Below, one piece after another: positions 450 to 47,904 of a DNA stretch of 64,000 nt (its first letter is position 1; each line of letters begins with the position of its first letter). Source of the stretch: Ashinkailepas kermadecensis (Eukaryota; Arthropoda; Thecostraca; Neolepadidae); contig JAOTOM010004373.1 in NCBI GenBank assembly GCA_034440615.1, positions 105,001 to 169,000 of the forward strand, given 5' to 3'. The translations under genes were made by a program, and so were the position numbers. Under the pieces are notes generated by a model. It had not been told where the DNA came from. It did no database searches and saw only the letters and a program-made list of their open reading frames with translations.

Positions 450-638
450 TGCGCACGAATGTGGTTATTGGTTTTTACGACACGTCGACCGTTGAGTCAT
501 GTAGCGTCGCCAATCTCTCACGCCGATTGGTCGCGGGCGAAGAGTAGCGACAGGTGAGACTCGAACCCACAACCTTTCGATTGTGAGACGAGCATCTTAC
601 CCCTAGACCACTCACTCGTCCCCCTGCGCACGAATGTG
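450..638 (-). mobile_element. tRNA-derived SINE, copy A, with 14-bp TSD
   Basis: A 161-bp element (464-624) lies between perfect copies of tgcgcacgaatgtg at 450-463 and 625-638. These are the target-site duplication left by target-primed reverse transcription. Read on the minus strand it starts with a tRNA-like head: GGGGACGAGT, an A-box-like stretch, and a B box GGTTCGAGTCT. It continues into a body containing CCAATCGGCGTGAGAGATTGG and ends in an AACC-rich tail. A 4-bp duplication (actc) interrupts the head. The anticodon arm does not fold as a normal tRNA, so this is not a functional tRNA gene. Confidence 0.92.
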
Positions 639-643
639 AGGCC

Positions 644-828
644 ACATTATTGACAGGGGACGAGTGGTCTGGGGGTAAGATGCTCGTCTCACAATCTAAA
701 GATTGTGGGTTCGAGTCTCACCTGTCGCTACTCTTCGCCCGCGACGAATCGGCGTGAGAGATTGGCGACGCTATATGACTCAGGGTCGACGTGTCGTAAA
801 AACCAATAACCAACCAACATCATTGACA
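644..828 (+). mobile_element. tRNA-derived SINE, copy B, with 12-bp TSD
   Basis: A 161-bp element (656-816), the same length as copy A but in the opposite orientation. The flanks acattattgaca (644-655) and acatcattgaca (817-828) match at 11 of 12 positions and form the target-site duplication. It begins GGGGACGAGTGGTC, has the B box GGTTCGAGTCTC, then the shared body, and ends AACCAATAACCAACCA. With copy A it makes a head-to-head inverted pair 31 bp apart. Confidence 0.92.
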
Positions 829-1028: not shown

Positions 1029-2734
1029 TGTCTTAGTCCGCTTGCGTTCCACGTCCGCATCAAGCGGAGTGGAACAAAACGTTGAGGATCGCGAACACTC
1101 TATCCAGCTACGTTCTCCGCGGGCACCAGAGGTGCGCTTGTCTGGCGGCTGTGCCATACTGCGCCCATAGAAGCTTCACTAGAAGTCGGGACAAATCGCA
1201 TATCCGGAAGGACGTGAATTGTCGCTCTAAGTTGTCGCTGCACACAGAGTGGGAAACTTACATTCCAGGTTGGGAGTCGGAGTGCATACCAACTTCTTCC
1301 GGAGTACATTTTCATGGACATTATTTTTGTATGCATGGTATCTGTTTACCAGTAATCGACCGGAAAAAAACCTATGTAATCAATACCTACATAATATGCA
1401 TATGTAATATGCATTCTCATTTTTCGTCAAATCAAATGTCAAAACATAGGAACAAAGAAGTGAACAATGGATGGCACCACCCGGCAGTGACTCGTAATAA
1501 TCAGCACTGTTTCGTCTCTCATAACCCACAGGAGCAAGGCGCTTTCCTTTCACTGTTGGTTTCAGTACAAGGCTAGCCATATGAAAAACAAACCATATGA
1601 AAATACTTCACATTTCACCCTCAGCTCAGAGCGCATACCTACCTACGCAGCCAATTTCCTACGTAATACGAACGCAACTACGCTACCGCACACGCGAAAG
1701 TTGGATGTGATCGAAGCAAAGGATCAGTCAAGGTCTTGTGTTTGCAGTATGACGCTGTTAACCATGTGTTCAAAGTTGCTAATGGTTATGACGTCATTTA
1801 AAAAATACCTTGCATTGATTGGTTGACGGACATATTTCGGAACAGAAAACGCTAACGCAGTCAATTCTGATCAGTGGCCTCCGGGACTCCGGAGGACGTC
1901 TCTCAAAACTGTCAAACTTTCCTACTATATGGGTGGCAGGAACACAGGTTTTCCGAGACGCGGCTCCAGAGCCTAAGAACAGTGTACTCAGTGCGCACGC
2001 GCATCATCTTGCACGTTGCTGTTGGCGCGTTGTTGTCGGCAATTCCGGTCTCTGGTTATCTTGATTCCGGTGGTTGAGATTGATGGAGTGTGTGAAGCTG
2101 GCGTCCGGCTGCTGACTGCCACAAAAAGTGGTTAGTTTGAGTGGTGACCGTAAGTGGAATAACCAACATTTTTTTTGGTGTCGTTCTGTGTTTGTTTTTA
2201 TTGATATCTTTGTTCCCACATTTGTGTCGGAGTACATGTGAAGCCCATCCTATCCAGTATGAACCCGGAGTGCAAAAATGTTTTCAGAGATAAAATATCT
2301 TAAGAAGTGCCTTAATTCCCACCCTGACTGCACACAGCGGCTGTCCAAACGGATGCCCGCAGGCGAGTCGACGTGTGTCTGACGTGCGTCTGACGCCCGT
2401 ATAACTCAAACCGGCGCAGTATTCAACCGGTCCACATCCTCCAGTGGATTACATTACCGGTACCACACGAAAACAACCACTACAGCCGTCACGTGAACGG
2501 AATCTTGCAGCCACTGCAGCCACTGTAGGTCTGTAGACCTGGCAGCCACTGCACGTCACCCTACATCAGTTGCAGCCGAGGTTGACGGTATCAAAGCGTT
2601 GACACCACATTGGCTGGCCGGGCGCCACCTCGCCGGCAGCTGACTAGGCGACAAAGCCACCAGTCGGCGTACCACGCTGCTGCCAGCATTGCTGATCATA
2701 CCGGCCGTCAGCGGGGAGTCGGTCTGCTGCCAAT
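1029..2734. other. no gene recognised
   Basis: About 1.7 kb of unique-looking sequence with no domain, RNA or repeat I can name. Open frames stay below about 165 residues and resemble no family. The right part (2,330-2,730) is GC-richer. Confidence 0.5.
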
Positions 2735-3012
2735 CGTCACGTCACGTCACGCCACGTCACGTCACGTCACGTCACGTCACGGGACGTCACGTCACGTCAC
2801 GTCACGTCACGCCACGCCACGCCACGCCACGCCACGTCACGTCACGTCACGTCACGTCACGTCACGTCACGCCACGCCACGCCACGCCACGCCACGCCAC
2901 GCCACGCCACGTCACGTCACGTCACGTCACGTCACGTCACGCCACGCCACGCCACGCCACGCCACGCCACGCCACGCCACGCCACGTCACGTCACGTCAC
3001 GTCACGTCACGT
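2735..3012. repeat. pentanucleotide array of two alternating variants
   Basis: A pure 5-bp array of GTCAC and GCCAC units with one gggac variant near 2781. From 2811 the variants are in blocks: 5 GCCAC, 7 GTCAC, 8 GCCAC, 6 GTCAC, 9 GCCAC and 5 GTCAC. The GTCAC blocks are runs of TGACG/CGTCA half-sites; the GCCAC blocks lack them. The long HVTSRHVT-type frames here are translated repeat. Confidence 0.97.
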
Positions 3013-3275
3013 AAATGGTCAGATTGACGGCAGACACCGCTGATGGTTAAGACAAAAACATTGCGTCGTCGTGCCTGCCGGAAACTTTGGTATTCCGGAA
3101 GATCCAGAATAGGGAGCATCATTGAATTGGCAGGGCGAAATGAACACGGTAGAAAGGGGACTAACCATATATTGTACTGCACGTAAGTCAACATTCCAGC
3201 ATGAAACGCTAAACCAGAAAGCCCACCAACCACCGCGCCAGTGCAGTGGCCGCCCACCCACTAACTAACTAAAGC

Positions 3276-3358
3276 TCTCGTCGAATGATTGGTGGTTATT
3301 TGGGCTTAGGGGCGCATCGATTGCGTTGTTCATACAGTGCCTATTTTCTCGTCGAATG
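3276..3358 (-). mobile_element. 59-bp retroposed element, copy 1, with perfect 12-bp TSD
   Basis: The sequence tctcgtcgaatg occurs at 3276-3287 and again at 3347-3358, enclosing exactly 59 bp (3288-3346). The minus strand of the insert matches the 59-bp insert at 40813-40871 along most of its length, including an identical run around gatgcgcccctaagcccaaa. Its 3' end reads AAATAACCACCAAT, close to the tail of the SINE family in this window. No open frame and no obvious Pol III boxes fit into 59 bp. It may be a very short retroposon or a truncated end of a longer family. Confidence 0.8.
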
Positions 3359-6438: not shown

Positions 6439-7887
6439 CAGCAGTGCGCACTCGGCACAAACATAGACTGCATACACGCGATACACAGCCACCGCCAGAC
6501 GGTCGGCAGCACACGCACGACTTTGTTTATGTGTGTGCTCTTCCTGAAAAACAAGCTTGGGTCAGGGTCTATAGCGAGGGGAACGGCACCGCCAGACCAA
6601 TGTCGGCTGGCAACAGCTGCATGTCAACCAAGCGCATATCCACCAAATAAATAACGATGCCACGATATGGACAGAGCAAGGCTGAGGGCGTCCTCAAGTC
6701 AGTGCAAAGGAAAAAGAGAAAGGGAGAGATGGGGGAGACCCGTGGTGATTGGCATACAGCTGATGCACCAGAGTGGCTGCATAGCCTGCACGTAGTGGCA
6801 ATGTGATCCCCGTGCGCACGTGTGCCATCATTTGGAGCGTCGGACGTGCGTAGCTGCCAAGTCCGGTGAGTTTTACCTTGATCGCACCACTGACAGTGGT
6901 CACCCACAGTGGGCACAGTGGAACTGGCTAAATATAGGTATCAAAGTGGCTGAGAATCCGGCTGTCAACCAGACAACCTCAAGGGCGGCAAAGCAAGTAC
7001 ATCATCCGTGGCAAGCAGCTTCCCAACACCGACTAAAAACACACCGCCAATTTTGATGTCCATCGATATGTTCTCGGCCGACTGTAGGAGCTCGTCAGCT
7101 CCCTTCAAGTCGAAATATAATGAATATAATACAAATTGTGAAAATCCGTACGCCTGGTTTCCAAGTGACTCACTGGTACGTGCCTTTATTTGATGGCTTC
7201 GATCATCCCATTTGCTGACTGATTGCCTGCTGTGCTGCACATGCACGTGCGCCACTCCCGGGAATCCCGGAATCCTCCGTCGTGGGCGGTGGGCATATAC
7301 ACGAAGTTCTCGCCAATGATTGAAAGGCTGCACAATGACTGCATAATGAAGGCTGTAGTGGCAGGGAAAGGAACTCGCTGCTCAAAGTCAATGCCAAGTA
7401 CATTAAAATGCACAAAGGCATTGATCTCTGCATCTGTTAACCACGCATTGCGTTTTCTTCTAGCGTATTCTTGGGGGTGACGATGCCAAAAAGAATCTTT
7501 TCGAAGCTAGATTAGCCAGAAACCAAGCATTTTCTTCCACGCAGACATTCAACACGAGGTAATCTTTGCCATACATGAAATGAAAACTCTTCCATAGCCA
7601 TTCATACCGAGTCTTCGGCTCCTCACAAGGTTGTTTCGACATCCAGAACTCCGGTCTACCCGATTACTTACATGTAACAAATAGTGCAAGCATGAATGAA
7701 ATAAATGAACGTACAAAGCAGCGCTAACGCAGCGCCTTGCATTGCGTAACATGAAGGACCTCACGTGAAAATAAAAAAACCTGCTCACAAGTGTGCCGCG
7801 TGTTAATTTCCCGCTCCAGCAAGTCAGCACAGATAACCACCTTTTGGTGCTGGGGCACGAGAGGCTACAAAGGCGGCGGGCCGAGCG
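6439..7887. other. no gene recognised
   Basis: About 1.45 kb with no recognised gene or repeat. Frames up to 122 residues on the minus strand have no motif I can identify. Confidence 0.5.
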
Positions 7888-8312
7888 CACCACCCACAGC
7901 AGACATCAGTACCACCCACAGCAGACTTCAGCACCACCCACAGCAGACATCAGCACCACTCACAGCAGACTTCAGCACCACCCACAGCAGACATCAGTAC
8001 CACCCACAGCAGACATCCGTACCACCCACAGCAGACATCAGTACCACCCACAGCAGACATCAGTACCACCCACAGCAGACATCAGTACCACCCACAGCAG
8101 ACATCAGTACCACCCACAGCAGACATCAGTACCACCCACAGCAGACTTCAGCACCACCCACAGCAGACATCAGCACCACTCACAGCAGACTTCAGCACCA
8201 CTCACAGCAGACTTCAGCACCACCCACAGCAGACATCCGTACCACCCACAGCAGACATCAGTACCACCCACAGCAGACATCAGCACCACTCACAGCAGAC
8301 ATCAGTACCACC
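7888..8312. repeat. 22-bp minisatellite, about 19 copies
   Basis: The unit caccacccacagcagacatc plus a 2-base linker repeats every 22 bp. Two positions vary among copies: accaccc/accactc and catcagt/cttcagc/catccgt. Because 22 is not a multiple of three, long frames run through it in several frames; none is evidence of a protein. Confidence 0.95.
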
Positions 8313-8394
8313 GTTGTGCATGATACGGCGACGACCGCAGCACCCTCCAGCCGTCCACCTCCGCAACACTCCTCTGTAACGCAAGCACAGCACT

Positions 8395-9147
<753 letters not shown>

Positions 9148-16108: not shown

Positions 16109-16294
16109 ATGGATGCAGTTGGTTGGTTATTGGTTTTACGACACGTCGACCGTTGAGTCATATAGCGTCGCCAATCTCTCACGCCGATTGGTCGCGGGCG
16201 AAGAGTAGCGACAGGTGAGGTTCGAACCCACAATCTGTCGATTGCGAGACGAGCATCGTACCCCTAGACCACTCGTCCCCATGGATGCAGTTGG
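16109..16294 (-). mobile_element. tRNA-derived SINE, copy C, in LINE A 3' UTR
   Basis: A 158-bp copy (16123-16280) between perfect copies of atggatgcagttgg at 16109-16122 and 16281-16294. Same head and body as copies A and B, minus orientation. The B box reads GGTTCGAACCTC on the minus strand. A local duplication (ttggaaaattattgataagc) follows at 16291-16331. Confidence 0.93.
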
Positions 16295-16890
16295 AAAATT
16301 ATTGATAAGCCTAGTTGGAAAATTATTGATAAGCCATTCAATCCACATGTGTTAAGAGAGATCAGGGGAATAGGGCTGGATAGCTAGGGTAGATAGGCAT
16401 TGATAGGTGTGTGGGATATTGGAGGACTGGTTTCTTCAGGATGTGGGATGGTTGGGGTGGGTCTTTTTACCAGGCTGATGGTATCTTCCATTTACAGACT
16501 TAACTGCATGGGCATTTGGGTCTCTTATCAAGTTTAAACGCTTTATAACTTTATATAGGTTGTACCTAGCAACGGATTCAGCACCTTCCTTCGGGATGTG
16601 ATACTGATGAGATTGTCTATGGTAGCACAATGGGTATGATGGGAGGAGTTTGTAATTGTTGAGTATGTTATGCAATAGCAAGTGAATGGTGCTAGATAGG
16701 CTGGGATATATAGCTCCCTAGGAACTTGAGGTAAGGGATTTATTGGGGTAAGAGTATGCACATTTATAGTACCTTTTCTAGATAGGCTTAACCCAGATGG
16801 GCCCCTGTGACTCTTATTAAGGCTTAACACTTTATGACTTGATGACAGACGCCCGCCCAGCCGACCGACGGCGGCGCACTGCCCGACGGC

Positions 16891-18319
16891 GACGCTGCCG
16901 ACCCGTACACCCCAGTATCCAGGTGACGCTGCCGACCCGTACACCTCAGTATCCAGGTGACGCTGCCGACCCGTACACCCCAGTATCCAGGTGACGCTGC
17001 CGACCCGTACACCCCAGTATCCAGGTGACGCTGCCGACCCGTACACCCCAGTATCCGGGTGACGCTGCCGACCCGTACACCCCAGTATCCAGGTGACGCT
17101 GCCGACCCGTACACCTCAGTATCCAGGTGACGCTGCCGACCCGTACACCCCAGTATCCAGGTGACGCTGCCGACCCGTACACCTCAGTATCCAGGTGACG
17201 CTGCCGACCCGTACACCCCAGTATCCAGGTGACGCTGCCGACCCGTACACCCCAGTATCCGGGTGACGCTGCCGACCCGTACACCTCAGTATCCAGGTGA
17301 CGCTGCCGACCCGTACACCCCAGTATCCAGGTGACGCTGCCGACCCGTACACCCCAGTATCCGGGTGACGCTGCCGACCCGTACACCCCAGTATCCAGGT
17401 GACGCTGCCGACCCGTACACCCCAGTATCCAGGTGACGCTGCCGACCCGTACACCCCAGTATCCAGGTGACGCTGCCGACCCGTACACCCCAGTATCCAG
17501 GTGACGCTGCCGACCCGTACACCCCAGTATCCAGGTGACGCTGCCGACCCGTACACCCCAGTATCCAGGTGACGCTGCCGACCCGTACACCTCAGTATCC
17601 AGGTGACGCTGCCGACCCGTACACCCCAGTATCCAGGTGACGCTGCCGACCCGTACACCTCAGTATCCAGGTGACGCTGCCGACCCGTACACCCCAGTAT
17701 CCAGGTGACGCTGCCGACCCGTACACCCCAGTATCCAGGTGACGCTGCCGACCCGTACACCTCAGTATCCAGGTGACGCTGCCGACCCGTACACCTCAGT
17801 ATCCAGGTGACGCTGCCGACCCGTACACCCCAGTATCCAGGTGACGCTGCCGACCCGTACACCTCAGTATCCAGGTGACGCTGCCGACCCGTATACCCCA
17901 GTATCCAGGTGACGCTGCCGACCCGTACACCTCAGTATCCAGGTGACGCTGCCGACCCGTACACCTCAGTATCCAGGTGACGCTGCCGACCCGTACACCT
18001 CAGTATCCAGGTGACGCTGCCGACCCGTACACCTCAGTATCCAGGTGATGCTGCCGACTCGTACACCCTAGTATCCAGGTGACGCTGCCGACCCGTACAC
18101 CCCAGTATCCAGGTGACGCTGCCGACCCGTACACCCTAGTATCCAGGTGACGCTGCCGACCCGTACACCCTAGTATCCAGGTGACGCTGCCGACCCGTAC
18201 ACCCCAGTATCCAGGTGACGCTGCCGACCCGTACACCCCAGTATCCAGGTGACGCTGCCGACCCGTACACCCTAGTATCCAGGTGACGCTGCCGACCCGT
18301 ACACCCCAGTATCCAGGTG
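16891..18319. repeat. 34-bp minisatellite, 42 copies
   Basis: gacgctgccgacccgtacac starts every 34 bp from 16891, with total length 42 x 34 bp. Copies differ at a few sites: cccc/cctc/ccct before agtatcc, and ccagg/ccggg. The period is not a multiple of three, so one 102-bp cycle is open in all minus-strand frames and produces the long GYWGVRVGSVTWIL-type frames. These are not credible proteins. Confidence 0.97.
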
Positions 18320-18598
18320 CAGCATCCCACGGCACAGCAACGGCCGCCTCCGCCCAATACGGTGTGTCCACGGTTGGCAATTGTGGTGGGAAACGACACT
18401 CGGTGGGAACAATGGATTTACCTCAAGGCAAACGTTTCGCTTTTATTTTTTGTTTACAGCTTTCATTGGACAGCATCAACTGCACACTAGCAAGAGATGC
18501 ATCATGTGTCATGTAAAGTTCACATTAATTGCATTGAGGTTCATGTCGATGTAGGGTTGTTGTGCGCTGCATGAAACTATATCGCGTTATGGTATTCA
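18320..18598. other. no gene recognised
   Basis: Unique sequence between two repeat tracts; nothing recognised. Confidence 0.5.
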
Positions 18599-23526: not shown

Positions 23527-23810
23527 GATAAACTTCGCTTATCTTTCCGTATATCCCCCGGTGGCAGAGGCCCGGTTGGCATCAATCTCCCCCCTTCCGT
23601 GCGAGCGAGTCTCGAAGGCCACTCCCCAGCCACACCCCAGATCACACGCCCGGGTCAGCACCACAATGAGTGCAGGGCAATGCCCGTTTGGCGGCCAATA
23701 CAGTTGATGCGCCATTCCGCCCACAAAATGACTGTGTAAGGTGAAGCCCTGCGGCCGGCCGCTCGGTGGTGAAGCCTTGAAGAGCACACGCTTCAGCGCG
23801 GCGGCTGTGT

Positions 23811-24400
23811 AACCCAGCCGTGTGCGGAGGGGCTCGTCACGGTACCTCACTACACGGAGGGGCTCGTCACGGTACCTCACTACACGGAGGGGCTCGTCAC
23901 GGTACCTCACTGCACGGAGGGGCTCGTCACGGTACCTCACTACACGGAGGGGCTCGTCACGGTACCTCACTGCACGGAGGGGCTCGTCACGGTACCTCAC
24001 TACACGGAGGGGCTCGTCACGGTACCTCGTCACGGTACCTCACTGCACGGAGGGGCTCGTCACGGTACCTCACTACACGGAGGGGCTCGTCACGGTACCT
24101 CACTACACGGAGGGGCTCGTCACGGTACCTCACTGCACGGAGGGGCTCGTCACGGTACCTCGTCAAGGTACCTCACTGCACGGAGGGGCTCGTCACGGTA
24201 CCTCACTGCACGGAGGGGCTCGTCACGGTACCTCACTACACGGAGGGCTCGTCACGGTACCTCACTACACAGAGGGGCTCGTCACGGTACCTCACTACAC
24301 GGAGGGGCTCGTCACGGTACCTCACTGCACGGAGGGGCTCGTCACGGTACCTCACTGCACGGAGGGGCTCGTCACGGTACCTCACTACACGCCACTACAG
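23811..24400. repeat. 30-bp minisatellite, about 19 copies
   Basis: The unit holds ggaggggctcgtcacggtac followed by ctcactacac. Most copies are 30 bp. A few carry an extra 15-bp ctcgtcacggtac duplication (24,025 and 24,160) or lose one g (24,245). It runs directly into the next array and shares the cggtacctcactacac core with it. Confidence 0.96.
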
Positions 24401-26945
24401 GTCTCGTCACGGTACCTCACTGCACGCCACTGCAGGTCACGGCATGGCACCTCACTGCACGGAACGTCATGTTACATCACGGCACGCCACTACAGGTCAC
24501 GTCATGACACGACACGACAGGGCACGGTACCTCACTACACAGTACGTCATGACACGACACGACAGGGCACGGTACATCACTACACAGTACGTCATGACAC
24601 GACAGGGCAGGGCACGGTACCTCACTACACAGTACGTCATGACACGACACGACAGGGCACGGTACATCACTACACAGTACGTCATGACACGACAGGGCAC
24701 GGTGCCTCACTACACAGTACGTCATTACACGACAGGGCACGGTACCTCACTACACAGTACGTCATGACACGACAGGGCACGGTGCCTCACTACACAGTAC
24801 GTCATTACACGACAGGGCACGGTACCTCACTACACAGTACGTCATGACACGACACGACAGGGCACGGTACCTCACTACACAGTACGTCATTACACGACAG
24901 GGCACGGTACATCACTACACAGTACGTCATGACACGACAGGGCACGGTGCCTCACTACATAGTACGTCATTACACGACAGGGCACGGTACCTCACTACAC
25001 AGTACGTCATGACACGACACGACAGGGCACGGTACATCACTACACAGTACGTCATTACACGACAGGGCACGGTACCTCACTACACAGTACGTCATGACAC
25101 GACAGGGCACGGTACCTCACTACACGGTACGTCATGACACGACAGGACACGGTACATCACTACACGGTACGTCATGACACGACAGGACACGGTACATCAC
25201 TACACGGTACGTCATGACACGACAGGACACGGTACATCACTACACGGTACGTCATGACACGACAGGACACGGTACATCACTACACGGTACGTCATGACAC
25301 GACAGGGCACGGTACCTCACTACACGGTACGTCATGACACGACAGGACACGGTACATCACTACACGGTACGTCATGACACGACAGGGCACGGTACCTCAC
25401 TACACAGTACGTCATGACACGACAGGGCACGGTACCTCACTACACAGTACGTCATGACACGACAGGGCAGAGCACGGTACCTCACTACACAGTACGTCAT
25501 GACACGACAGGGCACGGTACATCACTACACGGTACGTCATGACACGACAGGGCACGGTACCTCACTACACAGTACGTTATGACACGATACGACAGGGTAC
25601 GGTACATCACTACACAGTACGTCATGACACGACAGGGCAGGGCACGGTGCCTCACTACACAGTACGTCATGACACGACACGACAGGGCACGGTACCTCAC
25701 TACACAGTACGTCATGACACGACACGACAGGGCACGGTACTTCACTACACAGTACGTCATGACACGACACGACAGGGCACGGTACCTCACTACACAGTAC
25801 GTCATGACACGACAGGGCACGGTACCTCACTACACAGTACGTCATGACACGACAGGGCACGGTACCTCACTACACAGTACGTCATGACACGACACGACAG
25901 GGCACGGTACCTCACTACACAGTACGTCATGACACGACACGACAGGGCACGGTACCTCACTACACAGTACGTCATGACACGACACGACAGGGCACGGTAC
26001 CTCACTACACAGTACGTCATGACACGACAGGGCAGGGCACGGTGCCTCACTACACAGTACGTCATGACACGACACGACAGGGCACGGTACCTCACTACAC
26101 AGTACGTCATGACACGACACGACAGGGCACGGTACCTCACTGCACAGTACGTCATTACACGACAGGGCAGGGCACGGTACCTCACTACACAGTACGTCAT
26201 GACACGACACGACAGGGCACGGTACCTCACTGCACAGTACGTCATGACACGACACGACAGGGCACGGTACCTCACTACACAGTACGTCATTACACGACAG
26301 GGCAGGGCACGGTGCATCACTACACAGTACGTCATGACACGACACGACAGGGCACGGTACCTCACTACACAGTACGTCATGACACGACAGGGCAGGGCAC
26401 GGTACCTCACTACATAGTACGTCATGACACGACACGACAGGGCACGGTACCTCACTACACAGTACGTCATTACACGACAGGGCAGGGCACGGTGCATCAC
26501 TACACAGTACGTCATGACACGACACGACAGGGCACGGTACCTCACTACATAGTACGTCATGACACGACACGACAGGGCACGGTACCTCACTACACAGTAC
26601 GTCATTACACGACAGGGCAGGGCACGGTACATCACTACACAGTACGTCATTACACGACAGGGCACGGTACCTCACTACATAGTACGTCATTACACGACAG
26701 GGCACGGTACCTCACTACACAGTACGTCATGACACGACACGACAGGGCACGGTACCTCACTACACAGTACGTCATTACACGACAGGGCAGGGCACGGTGC
26801 ATCACTACACAGTACGTCATGACACGACACGACAGGGCACGGTACCTCACTACACAGTACGTCATTACACGACAGGGCACGGTACCTCACTACACAGTAC
26901 GTCATTACACGACAGGGCAGGGCACGGTGCATCAATACACAGTGC
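24401..26945. repeat. mixed 40/45-bp minisatellite, about 58 copies
   Basis: Units hold gtcatgacacgacagggcac, then ggtacctcactacacagtac. A 45-bp form has an extra acgac, and another form has an extra agggc. Variants gtacatc/gtgcctc/gtgcatc and cattacacg/catgacacg are distributed in blocks. The first 100 bp are degenerate copies linking this array to the 30-bp array. Long RHDTTRQGTVPHYTV-type frames on both strands are repeat translations. Confidence 0.96.
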
Positions 26946-29182: not shown

Positions 29183-30268
29183 CGGTGAAGGGCGGGGGAG
29201 GGGAGGGCGCCGAGAGACAGGTGACCTTCACCGCGAACCGTCGCCACAGCCGCCACCAGAGGTACTGACAGCACGTTGACGCCCACCAGTAAGAGGGTGG
29301 CCGGTGTGAGGCCAGTGTAAGGAGGACGGTGTGAGGCCAGTGTGAGAAGGTGGCCAGTGTGGGGAGGCCGGTGTGAGAAGGCCAGTGAGAAGGTGGCCGG
29401 CGTGAGGTGGCCAGTGTGGCTGGCAGTGGAACAGCAGGCTGTCGTGGCAATAGTGAACTGCCACAGCCGGTGCAAAGGCAAAACCGCCAAATAATGATCA
29501 TCAGCATCATCACTGAGCCATGTAGTAATGGCGCCGGGTGAATAAATCAAGGATGGATGATGAAACAGTGTGTGATACCATAAAATACAACATGAAAGAT
29601 GCCTATACTCATTAACTACCCATGAACCCATTGCGACGATCCCCGTGTATTTGCATGTCCTCAATTTAATGGAGCTATGGAGAATGGCATCAGTGATCGA
29701 ATTGTCATCAGTTCGCTCCCCATTAATCGCGACACACCCTGATGTTCAGCTGATCTGGCAGCATTCTCAGCAGCATTCCTCCTCAAATGTGTCCACATCC
29801 CAGTAGGGTTGGGTGCGAAAGATGGTTTGTAGAAAAAGAACTGATCTTCACTCATATTCATCCTAAGATGGAGTAAAATGCTTTGTATGTATGTCGGTAA
29901 CTATTCATCAAAAACTATCTACCGAAGAACTAAGCACCAGCTAGATACCTATCTAGGTATTGATAACGTATCAGTTTTGGCGCACTTCACCAACGGCGGA
30001 ACTATTTTTAGTTTCCACATGCATCAAATACGATTTCTAAATAAGCCAAAACCCTGTTGACTAGCATCACCATATCTGCAAAATGTCGGGGAACATGAAC
30101 GTTAGGACCTGGTTGAAGCCGGGCCAGGCACACGTGTCGATGTGGCGGAGGATAACGGGTCACGTATTGACGCGGCCCGTGTCGGCTGTACTGACCGTTA
30201 CCTCCCGCCGCAGAGGTCACCCCGTCTGCAGACGAGGCACGTCACGGCTGCCACTTACCTGGAAACGT
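29183..30268. other. no gene recognised; degenerate GGCCAGTGTG repeat at left
   Basis: 29,285-29,425 is a degenerate repetition of ggccagtgtgagaaggtggc-like steps. The rest is AT-richer unique sequence. No gene recognised. Confidence 0.5.
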
Positions 30269-31416
30269 CACAGTACCGTCACGGACACGTCACACACACG
30301 CGTCACGTCAGACGACAGTCACCGTATTGGCCGCTCGCCACACAGTACCGTCACGGACACGTCACACACACGCGTCACGTCAGACGACAGTCACCGTATT
30401 GGCCGCTCCCCACACAGTACCGTCACGGACACGTCACACACACGCGTCACGTCAGACGACAGTCACCGTATTGGCCGCTCCCCACACAGTACCGTCACGG
30501 ACACGTCACACACACGCGTCACGTCAGACGACAGTCACCGTATTGGCCGCTCGCCACACAGTACCGTCACGGACACGTCACACACACGCGTCACGTCAGA
30601 CGACAGTCACCGTATTGGCCGCTCCCCACACAGTACCGTCACGGACACGTCACACACACGCGTCACGTCAGACGACAGTCACCGTATTGGCCGCTCCCCA
30701 CACAGTACCGTCACGGACACGTCACACACACGCGTCACGTCAGACGACAGTCACCGTATTGGCCGCTCGCCACACAGTACCGTCACGGACACGTCACACA
30801 CACGCGTCACGTCAGACGACAGTCACCGTATTGGCCGCTCCCCACACAGTACCGTCACGGACACGTCACACACACGCGTCACGTCAGACGACAGTCACCG
30901 TATTGGCCGCTCGCCACACAGTACCGTCACGGACACGTCACACACACGCGTCACGTCAGACGACAGTCACCGTATTGGCCGCTCCCCACACAGTACCGTC
31001 ACGGACACGTCACACACACGCGTCACGTCAGACGACAGTTACCGTATTGGCCGCTCCCCACACAGTACCGTCACGGACACGTCACACACACGCGTCACGT
31101 CAGACGACAGTCACCGTATTGGCCGCTCCCCACACAGTACCGTCACGGACACGTCACACACACACGTCACGTCAGACGACAGTCACCGTATTGGCCGCTC
31201 CCCACACAGTACCGTCACGGACACGTCACACACACACGTCACGTCAGACGACAGTCACCGTATTGGCCGCTCCCCACACAGTACCGTCACGGACACGTCA
31301 CACACACGCGTCACGTCAGACGACAGTCACCGTATTGGCCGCTCCCCACACAGTACCGTCACGGACACGTCACACACACACGCGTCACGTCAGACGACAG
31401 TCACCGTATTGGCTGT
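30269..31416. repeat. 72-bp minisatellite, 16 copies
   Basis: cagtaccgtcacggacacgt starts every 72 bp from 30271. Copies are nearly identical; most differ only at cgctcgcc/cgctcccc, with rare extra changes (cacacacg, agttacc, a 2-bp ca gain in the last copy). Each unit has tcacgtca (TGACGTGA on the minus strand), three CGTCAC hexamers and an ATTGG/CCAAT box. A 476-residue frame runs through it, but all three plus frames are open, so I do not call a gene. Confidence 0.97.
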
Positions 31417-31825
31417 TCGCTACATCTACCGTAGGCAACGTGTACGCGACAAGCATGGACGGCGTGGAGTGTGCTGGAGCCGGGTTCGAACCCCACCAAC
31501 AGCAGGATATTGAGGAGCATGGAGCGTATTATGGGACCACGTGAAATAAGTGAGTCCTCAGTAATAGCTACTGCGGTGCAGAGCATGATCGCAGGATAGT
31601 TATGTTGCGAGCATGATACATAGTGCGTAAAGTATGCTTTAAAAAACATCGACACCACTGCATACAACGGTCGATCTGGGATGATGCAAATGACACAGGG
31701 CTCTCGCAGTCTCCATTCGAGACTTCAAAGGCGTTGGATCCCACGGGGAAGACATTGGGCACTCAATGTGTGCCCAACATTGGTCCACGTGGTCGTTTGA
31801 CTCGCGTTCGACCGAGCGGCCCATC
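31417..31825. other. no gene recognised
   Basis: Unique sequence. gggttcgaacccc at about 31481 resembles a Pol III B box, but no matching A box or tRNA fold surrounds it. Confidence 0.5.
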
Positions 31826-32396
31826 GGCGAGGTTTGGCCAGGGTCACGTACGTCGCACCAGTCGGCGAGGTTTGGCCAGGGTCACGTACGTCGCACCAGT
31901 CGGCGAGGTTTGGCCAGGGTCACGTACGTCGCACCAGTCGGTGAGGTTTGGCCAGGGTCACGTACGTCGCACCAGTCGGCGAGGTTTGGCCAGGGTCACG
32001 TACGTCGCACCAGTCGGCGAGGTTTGGCCAGGGTCACGTACGTCGCACCAGTCGGCGAGGTTTGGCCAGGGTCACGTACGTCGCACCAGTCGGCCAGGTT
32101 TGGCCAGGGTCACGTACGTCGCACCAGTCGGCCAGGTTTGGCCAGGGTCACGTACGTCGCACCAGTCGGCCAGGTTTGGCCAGGGTCACGTACGTCGCAC
32201 CAGTCGGCCAGGTTTGGCCAGGGTCACGTACGTCGCACCAGTCGGCCAGGTTTGGCCAGGGTCACGTACGTCGCACCAGTCGGCGAGGTTTGGCCAGGGT
32301 CACGTACGTCGCACCAGTCGGCCAGGTTTGGCCAGGGTCACGTACGTCGCACCAGTCGGCCAGGTTTGGCCAGGGTCACGTACGTCGCACCAGTCG
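31826..32396. repeat. 38-bp minisatellite, 15 copies of two variants
   Basis: Each unit has a gaggtttggccagggtcacg or caggtttggccagggtcacg start followed by tacgtcgcaccagtcgg. The two start variants occur in the order 7 G, 5 C, 1 G, 2 C. One G unit has ggtgagg. Otherwise units are identical, so the array is young and variants spread by local duplication. Confidence 0.96.
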
Positions 32397-32789
32397 CACG
32401 ACACATCCGAGCGATGCTTGCCAACGCTCACGTCCGAACAGGAAAAGGGAAGCAGTTTAGAGTTCAGGCACTCTGCGTATCTAAGTGTTGACGAGCTTCC
32501 GCCGCGTTCCTACAGCACACCAGTGTGTGGCGTGCATCAGATTGCCTAATCCTCACCAGATGTCGCTACATGCACTACATTTGCATTACTACCACCATAT
32601 CGTGGCGGCACGTCTGGGCTGGGCCGAGCCAGACCACCAAACCTGCGTCACTATTTGGGCTCAGTATAGTGGTGAGCGTTGTCGGCTGGTGAGGAACACC
32701 TGTCGGTGTTCACACAGCTGGCCGTGTTTGTAATGCATCAGGCAAATCAGCGCCACCAGCTGCTCTCGTCACTGCGTCACCTTCTCTGC
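32397..32789. other. no gene recognised
   Basis: Unique sequence; nothing recognised. Confidence 0.5.
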
Positions 32790-34470
32790 TGCCGACTGTG
32801 AACAGACGGTGTGGTCCTCGTCTGCTGCCGACTGTGAACAGACGGTGTGGTCCTTGTCTCCTGCTGACTGTCCAACAGAAGGTGTGGTCCTCGTCTGCTG
32901 CCGACTGTCGAACAGACGGTGTGGTCCTTGTCTGCTGCCGACTGTCCAACAGACGGTGTGGTCCTCGTCTGCTGCCGACTGTGAACAGACGGTGTGGTCC
33001 TCGTCTGCTGCCGACTGTGAACAGACGGTGTGGTCCTCGTCTGCTGCCGACTGTCGAACAGACGGTGTGGTCCTTGTCTGCTGCTGACTGTCCTACAGAC
33101 AGTGAGGTCCTTGTCTGCTGCCGACTGTTGAACAGACGGTGTGGTCCTCGTCTGCTGCCGACTGTCGAACAGACGGTGTGGTCCTCGTCTGCTGCCGACT
33201 GTGAACAGACGGTGTGGTCCTCGTCTGCTGCCGACTGTCGAAAAGACGGTGTGGTCCTTGTCTGCTGCCGACTGTGAACAGACGGTGTGGTCCTCGTCTG
33301 CTGCCGACTGTCGAACAGACGGTGTGGTCCTCGTCTGCTGCCGACTGTGAACAGACGGTGTGGTCCTCGTCTGCTGCCGACTGTCGAAAAGACGGTGTGG
33401 TCCTTGTCTGCTGCCGACTGTCCAACAGACGGTGTGGTCCTTGTCTGCTGCCGACTGTGAACAGACGGTGTGGTCCTCGTCTGCTGCCGACTGTGAACAG
33501 ACGGTGTGGTCCTTGTCTGCTGCCGACTGTCCAACAGACGGTGTGGTCCTTGTCTGCTGCCGACTGTCGAACAGACGGTGTGGTCCTCGTCTGCTGCCGA
33601 CTGTCGAAAAGACGGTGTGGTCCTTGTCTGCTGCCGACTGTCCAACAGACGGTGTGGTCCTCGTCTGCTGCCGACTGTGAACAGACGGTGTGGTCCTCGT
33701 CTGCTGCCGACTGTCGAAAAGACGGTGTGGTCCTTGTCTGCTGCCGACTGTCCAAGAGACGGTGTGGTCCTTGTCTGCTGCCAACTGTCCAACAGACGGT
33801 GTGGTCCTTGTCTGCTGCCGACTGTGAACAGACGGTGTGGTCCTCGTCTGCTGCCGACTGTGAACAGACGGTGTGGTCCTCGTCTGCTGCCGACTGTGAA
33901 CAGACGGTGTGGTCCTTGTCTGCTGCCGACTGTCCAACAGACGGTGTGGTCCTCGTCTGCTGCCGACTGTGAACAGACGGTGTGGTCCTCGTCTGCTGCC
34001 GACTGTCCAACAGACGGTGTGGTCCTTGTCTGCTGCCGACTGTCCAACAGACGGTGTGGTCCTCGTATGCTGCCGACTGTGAACAGACGGTGTGGTCCTT
34101 GTCTGCTGCCGACTGTGAACAGACGGTGTGGTCCTCGTCTGCTGCCGACTGTCCAACAGACGGTGTGGTCCTTGTCTGCTGCCGACTGTCCAACAGACGG
34201 TGTGGTCCTTGTCTGCTGCCGACTGTGAACAGACGGTGTGGTCCTTGTCTGCTGCTGACTGTCCAACAGACGGTGTGGTCCTTGTCTGCTGCCGACTGTC
34301 CAACAGACGGTGTGGTCCTTGTCTGCTGCCGACTGTCCAACAGACGGTGTGGTCCTCGTATGCTGCCGACTGTGAACAGACGGTGTGGTCCTTGTATGCT
34401 GCCGACTGTGAACAGACGGTGTGGTCCTCGTCTGCTGCCGACTGTCCAACAGACGGTGTGGTCCTTGCAC
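32790..34470. repeat. 36/37-bp minisatellite, about 46 copies
   Basis: Units hold cagacggtgtggtcctcgtc and tgctgccgactgt. The junction varies as tgtgaacag (36 bp), tgtcgaacag, tgtccaacag or tgtcgaaaag (37 bp), and ctcgtc alternates with cttgtc. The mixture of 36 and 37 bp shifts frame repeatedly, so the 615-residue minus frame is not under coding constraint. Confidence 0.97.
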
Positions 34471-34880
34471 GAGGAGTGTTGAATGCATCCGCGGGAACAA
34501 ATATAGGTGCCACTGCATGAAATATAATGCATTGTGTACGTGTACTGTATTGTACACTGACCGTGCTTTAGTATTTTAAAAAATACCGTGATACCTTTTG
34601 TCAGCGATCCCAGGGTTGCAAGAATGCCGATGAATATTTTCAGGTAGCATGTTTATGTTCCTCAAAACGACCAAATGCATTTTTCTTGGGGAGAGGATTT
34701 TCATTCCATGGGAAATACCTATGCATACTGGGAAGTCAAGTTTTGTAAGTCATAGCTTCGGGGTGTCAAGGCGGGTGATTTCAGACAACACCAGGGAATC
34801 AAAAGGACCACCGTGGATGGTGCACGTGACTGTGCACTGGCTACATGTTAAAATCCCTAGGATATTAGGTATCCCAACAC
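34471..34880. other. no gene recognised; possible 5' edge of LINE B
   Basis: AT-rich sequence between the array and the LINE. I cannot see an endonuclease domain here, and the exact LINE start is uncertain. Confidence 0.45.
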
Positions 34881-37712
34881 AAACGAAAGGTACACTTACG
34901 AGTCTGCTATTGCCTCAAAATTGGGTTTGAAGGACTTCAACATATATCAAAAGACATCGATTCCTGGCGAATTTCGACATCCTACTGCACTACAGGCACA
35001 GGTAGCAGGGACAATCAAGGATAATTTGGCAAAGATTCCAAATTTTAACAGGGCAGACTTTGACTGCATGAGAGAGGCTTTAAGTGCCATAAAATGGGAA
35101 GAAGAATTATTTGATTTAAATGCCTGTGAAATGTGGGAAAAGTTCAAATCTTACTTGAGGGAAATTCAGATTAGACATGTTCCCCAAAAGCAAAGGCGCA
35201 AAAGAAGGGTAGGAAAGCCAGCATGGCTTACACCAGATGTGATGAAAGCAATTAAGGCTAAGAAAGATGCATTTAGAGTATTTAAGGAAGCTTCAAATAT
35301 CGTAAATCTAAGGTCGTATCAAAAATCTAGAGATGCTGTGAAGCAGAAAATCAGAGCAGTAAAGCGAGCAAAAGAATTGGATTTGGCTAGGAACTGTAAT
35401 GGGGACAGTCAAAAGTTCTTTAGTTTCTACAAGCTAAGTAAAGTTTCAAGCACAATTGGTCCACTGGAAGTAAATGGGACTATATTGAGTGAGGATGGTG
35501 AGATGGTTGAGGAGCTGAGCAAGCAGTTTAAATCAGTGTTTACAGTGGAGGATGTGACTAATCTGCCAACCGTGAATCACAGTTCAGTGACAGGTGATCA
35601 GATACACGATGTTGATTTCATTGATAGTGATATTGTTTTCAATTATATCAGAAAAATAAAGCCGAACAAGGCAGCAGGACCTGATGGAATTTATGCTAGG
35701 GTATTGCGGGAAGCTGAAAAGGAAGTGGCAATTCCACTTAGTATAATATTTTGTTGATCAGTTTCACAAAATCAAATTCCAACAGATTGGAAAAGGGCAA
35801 ATGTAGTTCCTATTTTCAAGAAAGGAGAAAGAGGGAAAGTTGAAAACTATAGGCCAGTAAGCCTCACATCCCTAGTCTGCAAGGTACTCGAATCAATTAT
35901 CAAGGATAGAATAGTTAGTTTTCTGGAAGGAAACAGATTGATTCAAGATACTCAACATGGGTTTAGAAAAGGGCGATCGTGTCTCACAAATCTATTGGAC
36001 TTTTTGAATTTTGCTACAGAACAATTTGATCAGGGAAATCAGGTTGATGTAGCATATCTTGACTTTAGTAAGGCCTTTGAGGAGGTACCCCATAAACGGT
36101 TAATGATGCAGCTTCAGGTCCATGGTATTGCAGGTAGCATCTTAAAATGGATAGAGTTGTGGCTTTCAGATAGACAGCAGAGAGTGATGCTAAATGGTAC
36201 AAAGTCATCATGGCAAAATGTTCTTAGTGGAGTTCCCCAGGGGTCGGTACTGGGGCCACTATTGTTCATTATACATGTGAATAGCATTGAATGTGGCCTA
36301 AGCAGTAAGGTTTTGAAATTTGCGGATGATTTGAAGATCTTTAGGGCAATAACAGGGCACAATGAGCAGATTTTGCTGCAGAAAGACTTAGACGAGCTAG
36401 TGAAGTGGTCCGAAAAATGGCAAATGAAGTTTAATTTTGATAAGTGCAAAGTCATGCATGTAGGTAGGCAGCATATGAAGGCTCCATACTTGATGGGGGG
36501 CCAAGTACTATCTGTGACTCAGCAGGAGAAGGACTTAGGTGTTATTTTGAACACAAAATTGGGGGCATCAGAACAGACCAAAGAAGTCAGGAAGAAGGCA
36601 CTAAGAATGCTTGGGGCAATACAGAGGAATGTGTCATACAAAAGTGAGGTCATCAGGAAGCTTTACTGTGCATATGTCAGGCCACATTTGGAATACTGTG
36701 TCCAAGCTTGGTCCCCTAGTTATGAGAAAGATTGTTGGCTTTTAGAGAGAGTACAAAAGAGGGCAACAAAAATGGTTAATGGTATAGGCAACCTGGCATA
36801 TGAGGAAAGATTGAAGAAATTGAATATGTTTTCACTTAGATATAGAAGGCTGAGAGGAGATCTCATCGAGGTTTTTAAATTTGTTCATGGTCAGGAACAG
36901 GGATATCTCAGGGAAATGTTTGAATTTAACAGAAATAATGCAATTAGAGGTCATCAATTCAAAATTAAAGTTAATCACAGCAGGACAAGGTTAAGACAGT
37001 CTTTCTTCACCAACAGGGTAGTAGAACACTGGAACCAGCTGCCAGGAACCATTGTCAGTAGCAACACACTGAACATCTTTAAAAACGGCATAGACAATCA
37101 TTATAAGAATATGGGGCTTGTTTTTCTGTATTCCAGGGAGGGTTGATCGACAGGGAGGAGATGGGAGTTGGGAGGAGTTTGTAATTGTTGAGTGTGTTAT
37201 GCAATAGCAAGTGAGTCTCTTATTAAGTCTAAATGCTTTATAACTTTATATAGGGTGTGCCTAGCAGTGGATTCAGCACCTTCCTTCGGGATGTGATACT
37301 GATTAGATTGTCTATGGTAGCACAATGGGTATGATGGGAGGAGTTTGTAATTGTTGAGTGTATTATGCAATAGCAAGTGATTCTCGTATTAAGTCTGAAC
37401 GCTTTATGAATTTGTGTGGGGTGTGCCTAGCAGTGGATCCGGCACCTTCCTTCGGGATGTGATGCTGATGAGATTGTCTATGGTGGCACGATGGGTATGA
37501 TGGGAGGAGCTTGTGATTGTTGAGGGTGTTATGCGGTAGCAAGTGAGTGGTGCTAGATAGGCTGGGGTATATAGCTTCCTAGGAACTTGGGATAAGGGAT
37601 TGATTGGGTTGAGAGTATGTACATTTCCAGTACCTTTTCTAGATAGGCTTAACCCAGATGGGCCCCTGTGGCTCTTATTAAGCCTTAATACTTTATGACT
37701 TTATGACTCGTT
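34880..37712 (+). mobile_element. LINE B, CR1-like non-LTR retrotransposon, 5' truncated
   Basis: Encodes the linker and reverse transcriptase half of a CR1-type ORF2. Its 3' UTR is shared with LINE A and ends in two octamers, (TTTATGAC)2; short tandem octamers at the 3' end are typical of CR1. The 3' UTR contains an internal duplication of about 166 bp (ttccttcggg at 37281 and 37447). The endonuclease is absent. The left edge is uncertain. It lies immediately beyond the 36/37-bp minisatellite. Confidence 0.93.
34921..37146 (+). pseudogene. LINE B ORF2 reverse transcriptase, one in-frame stop
   Basis: One frame is open from before 34921 to 37143 except for a TGA at 35755-35757. Motifs in order are WLTPDVMKAIKAKKDAF, NKAAGPDG, then after the stop WKRANVVPIFKKG, NYRPVSLTSLVCKVLE, QHGFRKGRSCLTN, YLDFSKAFEEVPH, SGVPQGSVLGPLLF, FADDLKIF and YVRPHLEYCVQAWSP. 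The catalytic aspartates of motif A and of FADD are present. The usual KAFD is KAFE. The stop and the missing 5' half make it non-functional as it stands, but decay is light, so the insertion is relatively recent. Confidence 0.95.
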
Positions 37713-39077: not shown

Positions 39078-42000
39078 TCATTGAAAAAGTTCATATTTTC
39101 TAGTAATGTATTGCCTGATGTGTTTTTTCAAAATGATTTTACTCCCGGGTACATCATCAATCCTATGGAAATGAGAGCAGATTATTTTATTCCAGGCTTT
39201 TGGTGCAATAAAGGGTAATGAAAACATCTTGTAATTGATATCAGAAAAGGGTATTTGAAAGTGTTGTCTAACTCTGAGGTCACCTTCTTGATGAAGTTGA
39301 AACATATCAGAAAGAGGTGTTGGTAATGAGTGATTTAGAAAACCTAGCATGATGTAAATGCATTGTTCATCAACTATGTCCAGAAACTTAAGAACTCTAT
39401 GCTTGATAAACAATTCATTTGTATGGTATAAGTAAGGTTTCTTGTCAACAATCCTAATAACACGTTTCTGCAACTTAAATCTTGTCAAGCTTAGAGTGGT
39501 AAGTACTTCTCCAGACAACAGCACAGTAATTTAGATATGGCAGTATTAGATAATTATACAGAAGAAGCAAGTCACAAGTTGATAGGAAGTACCTAGATTT
39601 GCCTATAATACCAATATTTCTACTAATTTTTGAAGAAATGGCATTGATATGGCTTTTCCATGTCATGTCTTCATCGATTAATACACCTGAATATTTTATG
39701 CAGCTATGCCTTGTAATATTAGAACTATTTATTTTTACATGAAGGTCATCACATGGTTTCCTGGAAAAAAAAATTGATATCCAGTCTTATCAGCATTAAC
39801 AGATAATCTGTTGGTATGAAACCATGCAATTATTTTGGGTATTACCTCATCTACTTTAGTTCGTAACTCAAAATGATCATTAGCTGTAATAGTTATGGCT
39901 GTATCGTCTGCAAAGAGGTAAAAGCTAGCCAAATTGGAAACATTGCAAAGATCATTAATGTATAGAAGAAATAGCAGAGGTCCAAGAATCGAACCCTGAG
40001 GAACACCTATTGTGATATTTAATGGTTGGGAGAGGATGTCATGTATCTTGGTTCTTTGAGATCTATTTGATAGATGAGTTTAACAGTTTATATATATTTC
40101 CCCTAAAGCCAATAAAGTAAATATTTTGTACCAAAATGCTGATGGTGACAGTGTCAAAGGCCTTTTTTAAATCGAGATACAGGGTACAAACTAATTTATT
40201 ATTTACAAGGGCTTTAGTTACTTCATTATGCATCAGAGCAATTGGCATGTATGTGCTATGTTTTTTTCTGAAACCAAACTGCAGTGGGTGTATAATATTA
40301 TTTTCATTTATAAATGATGATACACTAATGTGTATTAATCTTTCCAGCACCTTCGAAAATATTGGTAGCAAAGAGATTGACCTATAATTAGTAAATTTAT
40401 TATTTTCCCCTGATTTATATACAGGAATTATAAATGCATATTTTAATGCATCAGGGAATATTGCAGTGCTCAGACAAAGATTAAAGAAATATGTTAGATG
40501 TTGCAAAATACTTCTATATGTTCCAAGCAAAATATGTGTGCTAATTCTATCCATACCTCCACCCACAGGGTTCAAAGACTTAACAATTTCTTCAATTTGA
40601 GCTTCATTAACAGAAGGAATATTGTTAATGCTGACATGAGTAGGCTGTGTAAGGTAATATAATGGGCTATTGTGTGCTGCATGTATATTTTTTTCCAATT
40701 CACTACCTATCGTTGAAAAAAGTATTGAATTTATCAGGTATTTGTTCATTTACACAGGTAGCCCCAGAGTTATCAACAAAGCACATGGGAGGAACTGTTT
40801 GCAATTCATTCTCTATGGGCGCTGTATGACCAACGCAGTCGATGCGCCCCTAAGCCCAAATAACCTAACCCTTGCAATTCATTCTTGTTTATAATTTCAT
40901 TCAAATACTTCCATGTTTTTTTCCATCACCTTTGCTGTCCTGGAATGCCCTCTTGTAATATAATCGTTTTGCATCCCTAAGCACATTGCAAAGCATGTTC
41001 CTATACATTTTGTATTTATTTTCGTTCAATAAAATTATATTCCTAATATATTTTGCATAAAGTTTATTTTTGTATTTATTGAACACAGAAGTGCAGGAGT
41101 TACCCATGGTTTAATTGGATTATTTCTTCTACTGGGTGTAAAAGTTTTAGATAATTTTGTAATACCTGTTTCATATGCCTTAATAAGTTTGTTGCATGCT
41201 TGATTAGCATCAGTTTCATCTTGAAAGGCTTCTAAGTTGCTGATGAGGTGATCATTTAATTCACTGATTTTATTCTTATCAAAGACTGTCACTGAATGTC
41301 TTGTTATATTTGAACTTTCAATTAATGACAGAATAAGAAAAACTGGAAAATGATCTCATAAATCATGAAGTAGTATTCCTGAATTGTTAAAGACATTAAC
41401 ATCATTTATAAATATATTATCCAAAAGGGCATCTGATTCATTACAAATTCGGGTTGCTTTTGAGATGGTTGGGAAAAATCCATAAGAATTGAACAAATTC
41501 ATAAAATTAAGTGTAGGTTTATCAGAGTGATATTTCAAAAGATTGTAATTGAAGTCCCCTGCTATGACACATGTACATTTGGTGTTTTCCAATGAGTCAA
41601 GTATTTTTTCCAAATAGTCCATAAATATAGTGTGGCTTAGACTTGGAGGTCTATACATTTCCCCTACTAGGAATCTTTTCGCTGGTACACCCAACTTCAT
41701 TTTGATTTCCAGAAAACTTGTCTCGAAATGATCACTCTCCAGGTCTTTTCTTTCCCTAGCCTCATATATATTACTTACATATATTGCTGTACCTCCACCT
41801 TCACCTTCTTTTCTACTAGATGAAAAGAGATTATAATTTTTTAGACTAAAGTATTGTTCTAAATCTTTCTTCAACCATGTCTCTGATACACAAATAACTG
41901 ACCAATCAACTTTAGAGCTTGCTAGAAAATTAACAACATCATCAAATTTATTCTTCAGGGATCTTGCATTGATATGAAGTACTGAGAATCCAGCATTAAA

Positions 42001-42126
42001 GTTAAGTGGTTGAGGTAAGGTATAATATGTACATTGTGACAATATAAGTTCATAAGGAGGGTACTTGTCATTCAAATCATTCCCTAGTAATTCCAATGTA
42101 GCTCCCTCAAGTTTGAGCCTGCTCAT
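39078..42126 (-). pseudogene. LINE C ORF2: endonuclease plus reverse transcriptase, broken
   Basis: The endonuclease part shows LHINARSLKNKFDD, SETWL, GGGTAIYV, EMYRPP, AGDFNYNLL and a DHFP motif. A stop at about 41356-41358 replaces the residue before DHFP. The reverse transcriptase part shows IPVYKSGENNKFTNYRSISLL, GFRKKHSTYMPIALMHNE, YLDLKKAFDTV, GVPQGSILGPLLF and YLFADDTAI. Frameshifts lie near 41,060, 40,715 (in a T run) and 40,085, and another near 39,740. Catalytic aspartates are preserved. Removing the 59-bp insert with one duplication leaves the frame continuous at that point. Confidence 0.93.
40799..40885 (+). mobile_element. 59-bp retroposed element, copy 2, with perfect 14-bp TSD
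   Basis: ttgcaattcattct occurs at 40799-40812 and 40872-40885, enclosing exactly 59 bp (40813-40871). The insert breaks the LINE C frame, so it arrived after that LINE. It is homologous to the insert at 3288-3346. It contains GGGCGC and GCGCCC, which could pair as a 6-bp stem. It ends AAATAACCTAACCC. Confidence 0.85.
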
Positions 42127-47792: not shown

Positions 47793-47904
47793 AAAAGCCG
47801 TAATTATACTGTCAGCCATAATTTACTGGCGCTCCATGGCGAATGCAGGCGTCCGTGCGCCCTGCTCGTCGAGCGGAACCCATCGTACCGCACTGGGAAT
47901 CACA

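Follow-up and report, generated by a model that had tools for sequence, protein, structure and literature searches.

On the evidence of sequence, the short element present twice in the 64,000-nucleotide stretch of Ashinkailepas kermadecensis DNA analysed here (hereafter the window; C3876:105001-169000) can be shown to originate from the 3' end of a 6.4-kb LINE. Tail-only insertions of this LINE with a strongly preferred 5' end form a distinct class that is real and well supported. There are many independent insertions with target duplications of about 10-18 bp, and in most short copies the 5' end falls no more than a few bases from the outer base of a 3' hairpin.

Two inserts in the window

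The two inserts, and the decayed LINE that hosts the second, have the following features.

3276-3287 and 3347-3358: target-site duplication of copy 1, TCTCGTCGAATG, perfect, 12 bp
3288-3346, minus strand: copy 1, tail-only retroposon of 59 bp with a decayed hairpin
3294-3343, minus strand: core of copy 1, 50 bp, TAGGCACTG...AAATAACC
40799-40812 and 40872-40885: target-site duplication of copy 2, TTGCAATTCATTCT, perfect, 14 bp
40813-40871, plus strand: copy 2, tail-only retroposon of 59 bp
40816-40865, plus strand: core of copy 2, 50 bp, TGGGCGC...AAATAACC
40817-40849, plus strand: hairpin of copy 2, in which GGGCGC (40817-40822) pairs with GCGCCC (40844-40849), with an upper UGAC/GUCG stem
40866-40871, plus strand: tail of copy 2, TAACCC, at the site of the (AACC)n repeat
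41356-42129, minus strand: endonuclease part of the decayed LINE hosting copy 2 (PF03372, PF14529)
40063-40749, minus strand: reverse-transcriptase part (PF00078), probably of the same decayed host LINE as the endonuclease part

The earlier note on this DNA had described two 59-bp inserts lying between perfect direct repeats of 12 and 14 bp, respectively, and both loci bear this out. The pair is 92% identical across a shared 51 bp, and a 26-mer, CGATGCGCCCCTAAGCCCAAATAACC, occurs in the window only at these two copies when up to three mismatches are allowed (0 of 100 shuffles). Copy 2 sits between the endonuclease and reverse-transcriptase parts of the decayed LINE. Neither window copy was matched by Rfam (at gathering scores) or by ARAGORN, and a known RNA gene was rejected as an explanation, Rfam having matched tRNA only, at three SINE places. 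The copy-1 locus has a second version, L096 (on C2023), with the same flanks and target duplication and a less decayed element, which by its letters looks like a segmental duplicate or haplotig of that locus.

A Pfam scan of 20 open reading frames of the window found transposon domains in four of them, a weak NUDIX/IMS match in one and nothing in the other 15. Very dense minisatellites, with spacings of about 8 to 72 bp, occupy 2600-3137, 7801-8736, 16752-18445, 23770-25358, 30125-32510, 32691-34564 and 46915-47934; several of them coincide with long open frames, in two or more reading frames, that are probably spurious. At 34861-37146, two adjacent open frames mark another LINE, beside which no hairpin copy was matched; the first has 298 aa, and the second, of 462 aa, contains a reverse-transcriptase domain.

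Copies across the genome and their 5' ends

The assembly searched comprises 907.7 Mb in 4689 contigs, in which the exact 25-mer that forms the 3' half of the core, GATGCGCCCCTAAGCCCAAATAACC, occurs 733 times (a total that includes copies with shared flanks), and its reversed control not at all. Our sample consisted of 100 of these 733 places, taken in contig order, and the two window copies, i.e., 102 copies in all, drawn from 97 fetched loci plus the window, four of the 100 places lying in a single locus, L030. Because the sample was chosen by the exact 3' half alone, no 5' end was favoured, and inexact copies were left out. Merging copies with shared flanks (e.g., L016/L036 and L039/L042/L078) reduced the 102 copies to 91 clusters, of which nine run into the LINE and 82 are short. 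The nine LINE-extended clusters represent 11 copies, nine of them recognised by an alignment score of at least 28 (control maximum, 23) and two, L001 and L027, by eye. The four copies of L030 (C919:30317-31975), where a tail-only insertion is found four times within an apparent minisatellite, count as two of the 91 clusters.

The element consists of a 50-base hairpin core and an (AACC)n tail. Across the 102 copies, column identity upstream of the 25-mer is at least 0.82 from -1 to -25, except at -8 (0.56); it drops from 0.90 at T(-25) to 0.51 at the next base, -26, and to 0.26-0.48 between -27 and -60, and nothing is shared among the copies upstream of -26. Because identity falls upstream of T(-25), we set the core as the 50 bp TGGGCGC...AAATAACC. 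The short clusters end accordingly: 63 of the 82 have their 5' ends 24-28 bases upstream of the 25-mer, where (A)TGGGCGC marks the outer base of the hairpin; 11 stop within the hairpin, and eight match slightly further (29-33 bases upstream), where chance matches also count. That 63 of 82 clusters end within five bases sustains the view, put forward in the earlier note, that the 5' end is not the product of random truncation.

Of the 102 copies, 58 lie between target duplications of 10 bp or longer, compared with 12 of 1010 mismatched flank pairs serving as controls, in agreement with the earlier proposal that the copies were inserted independently, in a manner resembling target-primed reverse transcription (TPRT); 53 such copies are left once the nine LINE-extended copies selected by score and L030, the minisatellite locus, are set aside. 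With L030 excluded, 80 short copies are independent; a separate duplication of 10 bp or longer is present in 50 of them (mean, 13.3 bp), and in 38 of these 50 the 5' junction falls at -29 to -22. The inserts in the same 50 copies are 33-121 bp long, with many at 52-55 bp and eight at 59 bp, so that 59 bp is not the fixed length it had been taken for. Since each window copy is made up of the 50-bp core, three extra 5' bases and six tail bases, their shared 59 bp is coincidental.

A pattern for the 5' half of the core matched the genome at 2682 places. Three of the first 43 listed belonged to loci already fetched, and the other 40, all on short contigs, were sorted by eye: 34 lie in four other amplified repeats (L114-L153), each bearing a single tail-only insertion in a constant position (these repeats account for 16, 8, 6 and 4 of the 40), two are separate short insertions, and four are LINE-extended. 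None of the four carried insertions runs on into the LINE, and their duplications, read by eye, are exact over 10 bp in one case and imperfect in the others. Because 34 of the 40 sampled places lie in four amplified repeats, 2682 is not a retroposition count; and because the pattern required TGGGCGC, this second sample could not reveal shorter copies.

The parent LINE

LINE-extended copies read directly into the same 50 bp. This LINE parent rules out an unrelated element family: what had been proposed as an undescribed, separate family is the 3' terminus of an autonomous LINE. Two loci, L098 and L101, hold full-length LINEs of about 6.4 kb that are 97.8% identical (in two aligned pieces), each flanked by a 14-bp target duplication. 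ORF2 of L098, of 1252 aa, contains, in this order, endonuclease (PF03372/PF14529), reverse-transcriptase (PF00078) and RNase H (PF00075) domains, an arrangement that we take to be that of the LINE I group, and its stop lies 152 nt upstream of the end of the 25-mer; the other open frame of L098, of 651 aa, had no Pfam match. Of 7996 candidates scored against ORF2, 464 reached E 0.001 or better, and 120 of these relatives were listed. Among the matches listed, the best at 98% coverage are 55-61% identical, and the named relatives are from Nymphon striatum (41%) and a Chloroflexota MAG (40%). Comparison of ORF2 with solved structures covered 11 distinct sequences, including LINE-1 ORF2 and R2, and gave no clade information.

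Other LINE-extended copies are 424 bp (L100) and 555 bp (L099) long, and copies of intermediate length exist, few in number. A LINE-extended insertion of about 81 bp recurs in L008, L077 and L082 and also in L136; it seems to have been amplified together with its surroundings, and in L136 CCTTTgTTGTGG/CCTTTaTTGTGG looks, by eye, like the duplication of this insertion. According to the earlier note, a continuous range of longer copies would reduce the 59 bp to a truncated end of a known SINE or LINE. The outcome was divided: the sequence is a LINE end, with longer copies from about 81 bp to 6.4 kb, but the lengths form no continuum and peak sharply at the hairpin base.

Three main subtypes of the hairpin are present in both LINE-extended and short copies, which fits an origin from several LINE subfamilies. 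Among 71 exact LINE-extended copies, counted by hand and unmerged, 48 are AACGC, 10 ATCGC, 8 GAAGC and 5 other; the 91 non-LINE copies of the 102-copy sample comprise 38 ATCGC, 30 AACGC, 10 GAAGC and 13 other, and ATCGC accounts for 30 of 81 in the short set after flank merging. ATCGC is commoner in the short than in the LINE-extended set (Fisher, p = 0.0001 unmerged; p = 0.002 with the short set merged), the two sets having been drawn with different patterns. A rarer subtype, CTGAATGACCATCGC (variant TGGGCGCTGAATGACCATCGCAGTC), has 55 exact copies. We considered a short-only lineage marked by CTGAATGACC, the 55-copy variant, and rejected it because five of the 55 carry the GTTA of the LINE immediately upstream (about 0.4 expected by chance).

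The 3' hairpin

The fold predicted for copy 2 combines the GGGCGC/GCGCCC stem with an internal loop and, above it, the UGAC/GUCG stem; its energy, -14.3 kcal/mol, is matched by 4 of 200 shuffles. Copy 1 has lost the hairpin through decay (70 of 200 shuffles fold as well), and a tRNA-SINE tail whose letters were combined from two copies in the window adopts the shape of copy 2 (matched by 10 of 200). Taken alone, the 55- to 59-nt hairpin is only modestly better than shuffles (z from -1.6 to -1.95), and the last 161 nt of the LINE have no advantage over shuffles, 155 of 200 folding equally well.

In an alignment of six sequences that includes both LINE-type and SINE-type tails, 95% of cells pair, compared with at most 60% in slid controls, and two pairs of the hairpin are changed on both sides between the two types. 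Three of five measures of covariation were reached by 1 of 500 shuffles each; the numbers of double-sided pair changes (253 of 500 shuffles) and of further pair types (475 of 500) were not unusual. Because the rows fall into two groups and the structure was taken from one of them, this pairing is support for the fold, not proof of it. Recognition of a stem-loop in the 3' tail by the LINE protein has been reported for zebrafish LINEs (ZfL2; PMC4176376).

tRNA-SINEs and the question of a stop

The window contains five tRNA-SINEs whose tails are related to the element.

59151-59316, minus strand: tRNA-SINE with a related 3' hairpin tail
16119-16280, minus strand: tRNA-SINE of the same family as 59151-59316
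655-817, plus strand: tRNA-SINE of the same family as 59151-59316
462-613, minus strand: tRNA-SINE of the same family as 59151-59316
50122-50271, minus strand: second tRNA-SINE family, with a related tail

The SINEs at 462-613 and 655-817 lie in opposite orientation about 41 bp apart and make a long inverted repeat. There is at least one further tRNA-SINE family (50122-50271; L002; L066), with a different tRNA head and a related body and tail; L002 and L066 match the SINE through other tRNA-SINE families only. In alignments with the SINE at 59151-59316, the score is 34 for copy 2 (reached by 0 of 2000 shuffles) and 26 for copy 1 (6 of 2000). These scores, together with the like hairpin fold, confirm the resemblance of the 3' end to a tRNA-SINE tail that had been remarked on from the letters alone. 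For the second SINE family, the score of copy 2 was reached by 7 of 2000 shuffles, and copy 1 gave no signal (1716 of 2000 as high).

If the hairpin itself arrested reverse transcription, SINE-type hairpins would be expected to end at the same place. The 22-mer of the tRNA-SINE tail has 10,974 copies in the genome, and of 4865 copies of the exact SINE-type hairpin 4497 (92%) keep the next six upstream bases exactly, the remaining 368 including point mutations. Among the fetched loci, none of 11 distinct SINE-type hairpins (12 matches, one locus having been met twice) is hairpin-only, compared with 63 of 91 LINE-type clusters (Fisher, p = 9e-6); one SINE-type tail, in L067, is cut inside the hairpin. 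Because SINE-type hairpins mostly continue past the base, the hairpin is not a general stop, and the contrast favours a difference in template, with LINE RNA often present only as a 3' stub, over an effect of the hairpin as such. The tRNA-SINEs presumably depend on a LINE; since they may use a different LINE enzyme, the contrast is weakened.

How the short copies may arise

We lean, by a small margin over disbelief, towards a model in which the 3'-terminal hairpin and (AACC)n tail of the 6.4-kb LINE were inserted by TPRT from RNA that had been reduced to the hairpin beforehand, a reading drawn from genomic copies. The LINE protein would bind the 3' hairpin of the LINE RNA, and the remaining message would be trimmed or cut away as far as the bound stem. 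The complex of protein and hairpin would still be able to nick DNA and copy the remaining 50-60 nt by target-primed reverse transcription, most simply with this LINE's own enzyme. Short copies would in that case arise often as a by-product of the LINE's activity, and a promoter of their own would be unnecessary. We infer that the template was usually an RNA already reduced to the hairpin and not the whole LINE RNA. Weighing against this reading are the 11 short clusters that stop within the hairpin, the excess of ATCGC among short copies, the two covariation measures that do not surpass shuffles, and the modest fold of the hairpin, which copy 1 and the last 161 nt of the LINE do not share. A more far-reaching form of this model, in which the transcript is routinely cut to an enzyme-bound hairpin of about 55 nt that serves as the main TPRT substrate, giving a headless, promoterless class that would rank among the shortest retroposons known and that outnumbers the longer copies of the LINE, is one that we put forward tentatively, with belief and doubt nearly balanced and doubt slightly ahead.

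An unlikely, though serious, alternative is that the template is intact LINE RNA and that the cut occurs in the cDNA: RNase H would strip away the copied RNA, and once the entire inverted repeat had been copied the nascent cDNA would fold at GGGCGC/GCGCCC, leave the template and be joined to the target. The LINE carries an RNase H domain, and the cDNA is predicted to have its hairpin complete at -24/-25, just where the 5' ends lie; one can also reason that RNA structure by itself should halt the enzyme ahead of the hairpin and not beyond it. However, such folding does not by itself explain the contrast with the SINEs, in which 4497 of 4865 like hairpins continue and 0 of 11 are hairpin-only, and the fold predicted for the cDNA is weak (-8.1 kcal/mol, matched by 20 of 200 shuffles).

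It is less probable still, indeed improbable, that the short copies are an independent SINE-like lineage, transcribed from a short gene with an outside or upstream promoter as a discrete hairpin RNA of about 55 nt and mobilised in trans by the LINE. The sharp 5' end and the enrichment of ATCGC in short copies would both follow from such a gene. Yet several subtypes are found in both LINE-extended and short copies, so that several such genes would be required; nothing is shared upstream of -26 among the 102 copies, the window copies have no Rfam or tRNA match, and inspection revealed no clear internal promoter. The ATCGC excess leaves room for a partly independent short lineage, and a lineage that propagates itself would give the same excess.

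Ordinary random 5' truncation is usual for LINEs (PMC3747384), and longer truncated copies of about 81 bp (L008/L077/L082), 424 bp (L100) and 555 bp (L099) exist; as the source of the short copies it is very improbable, with 63 of 82 short clusters ending inside a five-base interval of a 6.4-kb element. We give next to no credence to the idea that the copies are solely passengers in amplified repeats or segmental duplications, which may explain most of the 2682 matches, as the 34 of 40 copies of the second sample inside amplified repeats and the shared flanks of the first would suggest, but not the 91 clusters that remain from 102 copies after flank merging, nor the separate duplications of 50 of the 80 independent short copies.

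Comparison with known systems

The cause of the 5' shortening of LINE copies is an old open question. In this genome most cuts fall within a few bases, beside an uncut SINE with a like hairpin, a setting in which loss of template can be separated from fall-off of the enzyme. The short copies also suggest that a 3' hairpin and tail suffice for integration in vivo, which bears on the birth of SINEs by addition of a head to a tail. Inserts of 50-60 bp with target duplications are likely to be overlooked or misnamed in repeat annotation; a search of the open-access literature with narrow terms, itself weak evidence of absence, found no description of LINE insertions confined to the hairpin and constant in their 5' end.

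The tail-only copies share features with several kinds of retroposon. They resemble 5'-truncated copies of stringent-type LINEs (cf. ZfL2, PMC4176376) in having a 3' stem-loop, a repeat tail, target duplications and the sequence of a LINE 3' end; they differ in that most of them begin at one place, the base of the stem-loop, in place of the spread along the LINE that marks ordinary truncation and that the short copies do not display, and in that short copies exceed longer ones by about nine to one (82:9 clusters). With the tRNA-SINEs of the window they have in common a like hairpin, in which two pairs are changed on both sides, and an (AACC)-like tail. Those SINEs are about 160 bp long, whereas the tail-only copies are about 50-60 bp and have no RNA-gene head that we could find. 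Like SINEs, they share a tail with a partner LINE and are flanked by target duplications; a head derived from tRNA, 7SL or 5S with a Pol III promoter was not seen among the 102 copies, nor by Rfam and ARAGORN at the window copies.

The short internally deleted elements, or SIDEs, of R2 and R2/R1 (PMC3414825) and of Persaeus/Zenon (PMC6740152) keep the 5' end of the LINE or a ribozyme; SIDEs and tail-only copies are alike in being non-autonomous, derived from a LINE and in possession of its 3' end. A SIDE formed by internal deletion was rejected here, the 5' end of the LINE, GCCCTAAGGACCCGG, not having been seen in short copies compared by eye. Finally, the mammalian tailless retropseudogenes, which lack poly(A) and have tRNA or tRNA-related SINE RNA as their source (PMC3747384), are likewise a case of retroposition of truncated RNAs; the tail-only copies instead keep the 3' end of the LINE together with its tail.
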